Below are positions 39,598 through 41,353 of a DNA stretch of 64,000 nucleotides, in pieces. Position numbers and translations under genes: made by a program. Every line of letters starts with the position of its first letter. Within the stretch, counting starts at the first letter, position 1. The stretch is from Streptomyces sp. NBC_00820. GTDB taxonomy: Bacteria; Actinomycetota; Actinomycetes; Streptomycetales; Streptomycetaceae. The DNA lies in NCBI RefSeq assembly GCF_036347055.1, contig NZ_CP108882.1, forward strand, positions 310,001-374,000. Reading direction: 5' to 3'. The notes below the pieces were generated by a model. The model was not told the DNA's origin and searched no databases. It saw only the letters and a program-made list of their open reading frames with translations.

Positions 39598-40440
39598 TCA
39601 GCCCAGTCCGCAGCGGTCGAGTGCGGCACGAACCCGGGTGAGCCCCTCCGCTCTCCAGTGGTCCCGGTCGGGCATCTGGTCGTCTCGGCGCCAGCGCCAG
39701 GCCGAGAACATCGCCCAGTTCAGGGCGCGGCACCGGTGGATCAGGCCGTGGTCAGCCCCCGCGTAGTGTGCTCCCACTTCTTCGGGCGCATGGGCGAGGT
39801 CGAACTCGATCGGCCCACGGCAGCACGTGGCGAGGTCCACGAGAAGCGGCCCTCTCCTGGTGTTGAGGAGGTTGCCCGGATGCGGCTCGCCGTGCAGCAA
39901 CTGGTCGCCGGCCTTCTCGGCGCTGATCGCGGCGCTCAGTCCGCTGAGTGTGTCGCTGAGGAGTTCCCGGCCCGGATCGGGCAGCTCGGGAGACCGCTCC
40001 CGGTCGTTCACCTCTCTCAGCGCCCCGGCGACTCGATCAGTGAAATGCGGTGCGTCCAGATCGATCTGGCGCAGGGCCGCATGGTGCCGCAGGAGCACGT
40101 CCGCGTAGTCCGCCGGCGCGATCTCCGATTCCACGGGTCCGTAGTAGGTCCAGAGCGAGATGGCGAAGGCATCACGCACATACACTCGCGGGTCGACCCG
40201 CGGCTCGAGTTCAGCCACCGGAGCGTCGACGTCGGCGAGACGTCGAGCGACCTCCACCTCGAACTCTGAATCAGCCAGCTGCCCCAAAGGCGCGACCCGA
40301 GCCAGAACACCGCAGGGGACCAGGCTCAGCGCGACGCGGTCCGAGTCGTGGATGACGACCACATCGTCGACCCGAAGCCCCAGCTCCGAGGCGGTCACCC
40401 GTCCCGCCGCAACCGCGCGACGGAGTTCCAACGGCTCCAT
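39598..40440 (-). CDS. Phosphotransferase-like protein (APH/choline kinase fold)
   Basis: 280 residues. N-lobe strand VVVIHDSDRVALSLVPCGVLARV, helix SEFEVEVARRLADVDAPVAEL and hinge ISLWTYYGPVES. The C-lobe carries LLHGEPHPGNLLNTRRGPLLVDLATC. This is the Brenner motif HGxPHPGN with Glu in place of the usual catalytic Asp, followed by a metal-binding Asp. RGPIEFDLAHAPEEV is characteristic of this APH subgroup. GAGGAGGG precedes ATG 40440. It could phosphorylate a small alcohol or be catalytically divergent. Resistance cannot be inferred. Confidence 0.82.
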   Translation of the reverse strand: MEPLELRRAVAAGRVTASELGLRVDDVVVIHDSDRVALSLVPCGVLARVAPLGQLADSEFEVEVARRLADVDAPVAELEPRVDPRVYVRDAFAISLWTYYGPVESEIAPADYADVLLRHHAALRQIDLDAPHFTDRVAGALREVNDRERSPELPDPGRELLSDTLSGLSAAISAEKAGDQLLHGEPHPGNLLNTRRGPLLVDLATCCRGPIEFDLAHAPEEVGAHYAGADHGLIHRCRALNWAMFSAWRWRRDDQMPDRDHWRAEGLTRVRAALDRCGLG

Positions 40441-40721
40441 GCCGCCCTCCTCGTTGTTGAGTGCACTGGACCGCCCAGCGCAGCACACGGCTGGGGCCAA
40501 CAGCGACGCCCCCGATGCCTTCGCGGACATCATTCGATACCCAGACCCGGGTTGTGTGGTCTTGTTCACGGCACGTCGGCGATGCTCCGAACCGTCCGTC
40601 CTCCCTGACGGTCCGAGGCGATCAGCAGCGGCGCACCGTACGAGCTCCGGGTCCGCGTCACCGGCTCCTGACACCGGAACCCTGGTGCGCCGCTTCGGCC
40701 CAGCCCGTACGATGCCGTACA

Positions 40722-40803
40722 TCCCTCGTCGTCCAGCGGCCAAGGACACCGGTCTCAGGTTCGCCTGGAATCGGAAACCCGGGTTCGAATCCCGGCGAGG
40801 CAA
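40722..40803 (+). tRNA. tRNA-like gene with the anticodon loop replaced by a UUCG-capped stem
   Basis: Acceptor stem TCCCTCG (40722-40728) pairs with CGAGGCA (40796-40802), six of seven pairs. T8 and C9 follow, then D-arm GTCC-AGCGGCCAA-GGAC (G18G19 and A21 present). T-arm is CCGGG-TTCGAAT-CCCGG with all invariant bases. The anticodon stem CCGGT (40749-40753) pairs with ATCGG (40770-40774). Instead of a 7-base loop there are 16 bases folding as a second stem TCAGG/CCTGG capped by TTCG. Hence there is no anticodon. The D-arm resembles Gln/Glu tRNAs. A -10-like TACGAT (40708-40713) lies just upstream. No CCA is encoded. It may be a pseudo-tRNA or a functional tRNA-shaped RNA. Confidence 0.7.
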
Positions 40804-40842
40804 CCCGCCCGCGCCATCGAGCGGACCGCGTATCCGCGGTTC

Positions 40843-41022
40843 ATGCGCCTGATCATCACGCGTGAGCCGCACGTGTCCTTCACCCCGGGCGAGGATGAGC
40901 GGGTCCGGGCCGAGGAAGTCACGCCCTGGAAGCGGCGGTTCGTCACGGGCAGCTGTCGCGCCCTCCCCCGGCACAGGGGAGCAGGACCGTCCGCGCACGT
41001 CACCTCACACGAAGGGTGGTGA
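40843..41022 (+). CDS. Possible small protein just after the tRNA-like gene
   Basis: 59 codons from ATG 40843. The first ~45 residues (MRLIITREPHVSFTPGEDER, then VRAEEVTPWKRRF) have balanced composition, unlike nearby shadows, but there is no ribosome-binding site and no known domain. It may be a remnant of an inserted element or chance. Low confidence. Confidence 0.25.
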   Translation: MRLIITREPHVSFTPGEDERVRAEEVTPWKRRFVTGSCRALPRHRGAGPSAHVTSHEGW

Positions 41023-41097
41023 CCTTGTCCGCGAGCGACTCGCACGCAAGGGCGACGGCCACCCGCTGCGGTAAATCGATGGCGCACGCGAACCACT

Positions 41098-41265
41098 GTG
41101 TCCACCCTGGTCCCCGTGGCAGAACCCAATTATCAGATCCGCGCCTTATACGCGGATTCCGCGGTCACCGTCTACCAGGCGTACGGGCCGGAGATCGGTC
41201 TGCCGACGGCCCGGGAGGGCCGTTTCCCCGCCGTGTGGCAGCGGGTCCGGATGACATGGGTCATC
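41098..41265 (+). pseudogene. DUF4291 gene fragment (N-terminal ~55 residues only)
   Basis: The frame from GTG 41098 reads VPVAEPNYQIRALYADSAVT, then VYQAYGPEIGLPTAREGRF and RVRMTW. This matches the start of DUF4291 proteins (NYxIRA ... VYQAYSPEIA ... GRF ... RMTWIKPSF). After MTW the conserved sequence stops and the frame continues into unrelated DNA leading to the terminator at 41354. About 140 C-terminal residues are missing. It lies ~300 bp from the tRNA-like gene, so it may mark the edge of an old insertion or deletion. Confidence 0.65.
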
Positions 41266-41353
41266 AAGGCGCGTTCACGGCCTTTTCCCTCTGTCGGAAG
41301 TGGCCGGCCCCTGCAAGGGAAAGGCCTCTCCGCTGATCCAGTGCTCGAGGCAG

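Follow-up and report, generated by a model that had tools for sequence, protein, structure and literature searches.

A putative tRNA-Glu-like RNA family of Streptomyces with a helix in place of the anticodon loop

Introduction

Can a gene that has the shape of a tRNA but no anticodon loop encode a working RNA, and what would such an RNA be for? The question is raised by a locus of Streptomyces sp. NBC_00820, within a stretch of 64,000 nucleotides (contig NZ_CP108882.1, positions 310,001 to 374,000), here called the window, to which all coordinates refer. The initial annotation, made from the letters of the sequence, described a tRNA-shaped gene with an additional hairpin in place of the anticodon loop. 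Here we ask whether this shape is real, how far it is conserved, where the gene is found and which functions are compatible with it.

A tRNA-shaped gene with a lengthened anticodon arm

The tRNA shape is confirmed: ARAGORN calls a tRNA-??? at 40722-40805, and the tRNA model RF00005, run on the segment in a permissive Rfam scan of 501 bases, matches 40722-40803 on the plus strand with 42.2 bits (E = 1.1e-7; the gathering score is 29). The window copy thus shows a cloverleaf that tRNA models recognise, as a canonical tRNA-Glu would. A Rfam scan of the full 64 kb at default settings lists nothing; that it misses a 42-bit tRNA match shows how such genes stay hidden, and tRNA-like genes of this kind may be under-annotated.

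What differs from a canonical tRNA-Glu is the anticodon arm: instead of a 7-nt loop on a 5-pair stem, the window copy has, as initially described, an insert of 16 nt (40754-40769) that can fold as a hairpin, and all 33 copies that were aligned share this architecture (Table 1). The further claim that all stems pair holds for the D-arm, the basal anticodon stem and the T-arm, but not for the acceptor, where pair 2-71 (40723/40801) is C-C. The fold initially proposed for the insert, UCAGG/CCUGG closed by UUCG, fits the window copy, but the comparison of 31 distinct relatives favours a register shifted by one, with a bulged C, five pairs and a 5-nt loop YUCGC (97.4% of cells paired versus 77.1% in the former register). 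The window copy can also form an alternative fold of the insert with a U40755-A40769 pair and a bulged G40767. Folded alone, the window sequence yields no cloverleaf and its stability is not unusual (z = -1.56; 15 of 200 shuffles are at least as stable); the extra hairpin is present in both the MFE and the centroid fold. The case against chance is a comparative one.

Table 1. Parts of the tRNA-Glu-like gene in the window and its upstream element
Feature	Position	Strand	Basis or remark
-10-like box TACGAT	40708..40713	+	TANNNT conserved across loci
tRNA-Glu-like RNA, acceptor to discriminator	40722..40803	+	ARAGORN; RF00005, 42.2 bits; family model R1, 91.7 bits (copy belongs to the R1 training set)
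Acceptor, 5' strand	40722..40728	+	five contiguous pairs plus U1-A72; C-C mismatch at 2-71; sequence, duplex fold
D-arm	40731..40747	+	RF00005 match; 99.2% of cells paired in the alignment
Lengthened anticodon arm	40749..40774	+	basal plus extra stem, 96.1% of cells paired
Basal anticodon stem	40749-40753/40770-40774	+	alignment pairing
Unpaired C	40754	+	between basal stem and extra stem
Extra stem and loop	40755-40769	+	comparative register
Tip loop UUCGC (UUCG in the initial register)	40760..40764	+	contains UUC, a Glu anticodon triplet; identity 0.974
Variable loop AAAC	40775..40778	+	identical in 33/33 aligned copies
T-arm, loop UUCGAAU	40779..40795	+	RF00005 match; 100% of cells paired
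Acceptor, 3' strand, and discriminator A	40796..40803	+	next bases CCC, not CCA

Compared with the tRNA-Glu(UUC) of the same host (L108), the D-arm is very similar, the T-loop identical and the variable loop equal in length. The differences are the loop (16 versus 7 nt), the C-C at 2-71 and the bases that follow the discriminator (CCC versus CCA). The host tRNA-Glu(UUC) scores 59.3 bits with a covariance model of the family (R1, see below), and in our preferred reading the family descends from tRNA-Glu.

Relatives in the genus Streptomyces

In the genus, 392 genomes were searched, and BLASTN (E <= 1e-4) finds the gene in 24 of them. The covariance model R1, built from 22 copies, matches 391 of the 392 genomes at E <= 0.01 because it also picks up tRNA-Glu; the scores are separated by a wide gap, as 24 genomes reach at least 85.7 bits and no further score exceeds 62.1 bits. 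All seven lower-scoring loci that were inspected (L056-L061 and L108) are tRNA-Glu(UUC). BLASTN and R1 together give 26 carriers among the 392 genomes, including two copies that are found by BLASTN only, reach just 43 and 46 bits with R1 and look eroded (G341 and G351); these two were excluded from the alignments. The window copy is therefore no one-off mutant but has full-scoring relatives in Streptomyces, and a homologue with a normal 7-base loop, from which it might have been derived by mutation, was looked for and not found in the 392 genomes, given the score gap and the seven loci checked.

Among 394 genomes of the class, representing 137 genera, there are four matches at E <= 1e-13, none of them outside the home genus. 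An exact pattern, strict enough to miss some known copies, identifies 18 stretches in 84,980 species genomes, every one of them titled Streptomyces. There is no copy in 50,697 phage records and no match to the exact pattern in IMG/VR, and we have dropped a phage origin. By these searches, the RNA family is so far known only from Streptomyces.

Conservation and covariation

The alignment (A3) holds 33 copies, 31 of them distinct: 24 come from the full-scoring carriers, two from plasmids and seven from further named genomes. Standard pairs make up 92.8% of the cells over its 26 pairs, of which 14 have changed on both sides; slid controls are 31-56% paired. The covariation score of the 31 distinct copies is 0.312 versus 0.148 in shuffles and is reached by none of 500. 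The extra stem taken alone has two-sided changes at four of its five pairs, again a level reached by none of 500 shuffles. These shuffles take no account of the relatedness among the copies, and the covariation mainly follows the split between two clades, so that independent events are fewer than the counts. The initial argument that the extra stem is not a product of random decay is nonetheless strengthened by homologous loci in which this stem covaries, and for the family as a whole the decay reading can be set aside for that reason. RNAalifold also chose the register with the bulged C, but placed an alternative hairpin in the D-region and formed neither the acceptor nor the D-stem.

G-U cells outnumber A-C cells 41 to 4 outside the acceptor, and 66 to 17 if the acceptor is included. 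As G-U and A-C swap on the opposite strand, this excess indicates a constraint that fits an RNA of the plus strand.

The arms differ in how well they are kept. Mean pairwise identity is 100% in the variable loop, 97% in the tip loop, 93% in the T-arm, 87% in the D-arm and 82% and 83% in the two strands of the extra stem; it is 63% and 74% in the basal anticodon stem, 61% and 58% in the acceptor strands, figures somewhat lowered by a one-base difference in register between the clades, and 49% at the single position 26. In one register, 79.2% of acceptor cells are paired. Clade 1 has 10 aligned copies, among them those of the window and of the S. venezuelae plasmid, and five contiguous acceptor pairs in seven of the 10. 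The acceptor of clade 2 (GGCCAUG.../...GGCC) pairs well, with a bulge or small internal loop; the letters CCA occur in this clade, but in the alignment register they share bases with the paired end. The discriminator varies among copies. The tip contains UUC in 32 of the 33 copies; the one exception, with CUC, is the copy on the S. venezuelae plasmid. Either triplet is a Glu anticodon, yet the tips also fit stable YNMG tetraloops, and a kept anticodon is therefore only a suggestion.

Putative expression signals

In 23 of the 26 loci, a TANNNT motif, with a background frequency of 0.00076 per position, lies 12 or 13 nt ahead of the first column of the alignment, and in two more it is at -15 and -18; only the eroded copy of G341 lacks it. 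With the usual spacing, the window RNA would start at about 40720, some 7 nt past the box; in clade 2, the same spacing would put the RNA start at the first acceptor base. At the level of sequence, this conserved -10-like box is the only sign of transcription. No consensus -35 element was found for the window copy, there is no consensus terminator site in 40400-41200, and the folds downstream of the RNA differ among copies. Soon after the window RNA, 40825-40840 (plus strand) forms a perfect 6-bp hairpin (ACCGCG-TATC-CGCGGT) without a U run, which may aid 3' end formation in this one copy.

Genomic sites and neighbours

The window copy is flanked by a gene of the APH family and a truncated DUF4291 gene. 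The latter lies downstream of the RNA at about 41134-41262 (plus strand; PF14124, E = 8e-11) and covers positions 1-44 of the 180 of the profile; many other genomes of the genus have matches to this part. The DNA just downstream of the RNA (40816-40923) has matches in five of 246 other genomes, at 81-87%, and belongs to no Pfam family; a transposase fragment considered at 40816-40926 was dropped for want of Pfam support. When 40380-41300 was searched for empty sites in 246 genomes, none had both flanks without the RNA; most of the 76 matching genomes match the DUF4291 stretch.

DNA similarity between loci often ends near the RNA and its promoter. Three genomes (G132, G206, G258) have the gene at one common site beside tRNA-Gly(TCC), tRNA-Pro(TGG) and the trigger factor gene (tig), and another copy adjoins tRNA-Arg. 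Two copies are on linear plasmids: in S. venezuelae NRRL B-65442 (158,122 bp) the RNA precedes a Ku gene by about 90 bp, and in Streptomyces sp. NBC_00963 (280,887 bp) the record ends 734 bp from it. This second plasmid copy (L107; NZ_CP108746.1, 734-833), less than 0.8 kb from the end, has a gene with a helicase-associated domain nearby. Together, the plasmids and the tRNA-Gly/tRNA-Pro/tig site associate the gene with foreign DNA.

No protein cluster is found in more than three of the 26 loci (14-20 kb each), as judged with a home-made gene caller, which overlooks genes whose third-position GC is low. A divergent zinc-ribbon (DUF6083) gene lies upstream of the RNA in six of the 26 loci (G132, G206, G258, G249, G315 and G164); the one copy that was run, from G249, matches DUF6083 in Pfam with 32.9 bits (cut-off 27.1). 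These loci (L109, L111, L112, L114, L115 and L116) are from six genomes and represent more than one site. Close DUF6083 homologues (at least 70% identity, nearly full length) are present in eight of the 26 carriers and in one of 26 non-carriers picked among their closest relatives; one carrier and two non-carriers have weaker ones. The gene and the RNA may move together. DUF6083 was rejected as an obligate partner, since two of the eight carriers have it apart from the RNA and the non-carrier G033 has it alone. In G399 (L110), the DUF6083 gene is kept beside tRNA-Gly/tRNA-Pro, together with upstream DNA that ends 8 nt short of where the RNA would begin; the RNA is absent from this site and sits 188 kb away, so that this genome has the promoter region at two sites and the RNA at one. 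The vacant site has an integrase-like piece instead (PF00589, 19.4 bits, below the cut-off of 27.1).

Possible functions

Comparison of the copies establishes an architecture, its covariation, a -10-like box and differing neighbours at differing sites. As the shape is kept across species and plasmids, the gene probably encodes a working RNA with a role other than codon reading: known tRNA geometry leads us to infer that about five extra pairs should bar it from the decoding site, the arm being too long for the ribosome. Our preferred reading, to which we give a probability of roughly 0.45 and which is thus tentative, is that of a mobile, non-decoding RNA derived from tRNA-Glu whose role is that of a structural mimic or decoy and not of an amino-acid donor. 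A gene with its own putative promoter would have spread over many sites, linear plasmids among them. Its RNA, presumably transcribed and L-shaped, would keep the tRNA core (D-arm, T-arm and variable loop) on an anticodon arm lengthened by the bulged C and five pairs, which would keep the elbow and the conserved YUCGC tip nearly the same distance apart in all copies; working uncharged, it could bind a tRNA-handling protein through elbow and tip, as a decoy or a regulator. That core and tip are best kept, while the amino-acid end is the most variable, fits a shape-recognised mimic better than a charged RNA, and the patchy presence in mobile surroundings suggests a service to mobile DNA or to host conflicts rather than housekeeping. 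Against this reading stand covariation counts that mainly reflect the clade split, the failure of RNAalifold to form acceptor and D-stem, an acceptor with only 79.2% of its cells paired in one register, and the well-paired acceptor of clade 2; with the register shift between the clades and a basal stem that is almost as variable, the weak conservation of the acceptor is not strong evidence against charging. A more specific proposal, which we consider improbable, is a decoy tRNA of mobile DNA whose Glu triplet YUC, presented on an over-long arm, sequesters or blocks a protein, such as an anticodon nuclease, by which tRNA-Glu is attacked or handled; if true, this would be a decoy tRNA unusable by the ribosome in conflicts of plasmids or islands with their Streptomyces hosts.

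An amino-acyl donor outside translation had been among the roles initially suggested; the RNA would be charged, Glu being one possibility, and would serve a tRNA-dependent ligase or transferase. Pseudo-tRNAs for cell-wall synthesis are described in PMC3399842. Such a donor would account for the preserved tRNA-Glu core with its 4-nt variable loop, for a tip that is still UUC or CUC and for the good acceptor pairing of clade 2. The idea loses ground, and we regard it as rather unlikely, because the acceptor is the most variable arm, the discriminator varies, the window copy has the 2-71 mismatch and, unlike the host tRNA-Glu, encodes no CCA, and none of the protein clusters beside the RNA offers an enzyme common to the loci; moreover, Glu-tRNA synthetase reads the anticodon. 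If instead the tRNA body were a stable scaffold and the tip loop of a small regulatory RNA acted on an mRNA or another RNA, the high conservation of the tip would be expected, but the loop is only 4-5 nt long and there would be no need to keep the tRNA-specific core so well, which makes this reading quite doubtful.

The gene could also matter as DNA, as a site of attachment or recombination, or an element tied to replication, that islands and linear plasmids have drawn from a tRNA gene. The island-type site beside tRNA-Gly/tRNA-Pro, the site beside tRNA-Arg, the linear plasmids and the doubled promoter region of G399 are in line with this; DNA recombination needs neither the preference for G-U over A-C nor a conserved -10-like box, and a duplicated 3' part of the gene was not seen in G000, G004 and G013, which gave a single match each (E <= 1e-3, 14 candidates per genome; in the other carriers, two candidates per genome were scored). 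The last result also weakens the initial idea of an att-site scar, and we judge a role at the DNA level to be improbable. A decaying or mutated tRNA-Glu without function is very improbable indeed: erosion is seen in two of the 26 copies, of which one also lacks the box, and the window copy, with its acceptor mismatch, lies beside a truncated gene, but covariation and a constant geometry over 31 distinct copies argue against it, as does the lack of a normal-loop intermediate. Covariation leads us to reject decay or chance for the family, though not for every copy, given the two eroded ones. The mimic or decoy remains our preferred reading, and the tRNA-derived RNAs of these several species would form a family that has exchanged its decoding loop for a conserved helix, has kept the core and travels with mobile DNA. 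As the plasmid of S. venezuelae NRRL B-65442 carries a copy, a non-translational role of the tRNA shape is directly testable in a laboratory strain.

Comparison with known systems

Among the matches listed for the open-licence PMC literature, no description of this Streptomyces RNA was recognised from title and start of abstract, and the passages of PMC8007984 that were examined contain nothing on it. Tampering with anticodon loops on foreign DNA has a parallel in phage tRNAs that resist tRNA-cutting host defences; as presented in PMC10264068 and PMC11555353, these are proposed replacements for cut tRNAs. Like the Streptomyces RNA, they are tRNA genes carried by foreign DNA and altered at the anticodon loop, but they are proposed still to decode, which the Streptomyces RNA should not, and the 50,697 phage records hold no copy of it. 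Naturally lengthened anticodon stems are found in tRNA-Pyl (6 pairs) and Sec-like tRNAs (PMC7609411). They share with the Streptomyces RNA an anticodon arm beyond the usual 5 pairs; in contrast to it, they retain an anticodon loop and translate, whereas the Streptomyces arm has five further pairs and a tip of 4-5 nt.

The nearest precedent is tRNA-Other of Bacillus cereus, a pseudo-tRNA that stands outside translation and is thought to be regulatory (PMC3399842). Compared by description only, both RNAs are tRNA-shaped and linked to foreign DNA, and tRNA-Other is described there as poorly or not chargeable, as well as regulatory in its presumed role (PMC3399842). In contrast to the Streptomyces RNA, tRNA-Other has a normal-looking Trp anticodon, whereas the former has a helix at this place, a tRNA-Glu-like body and many genomic sites (PMC3399842).
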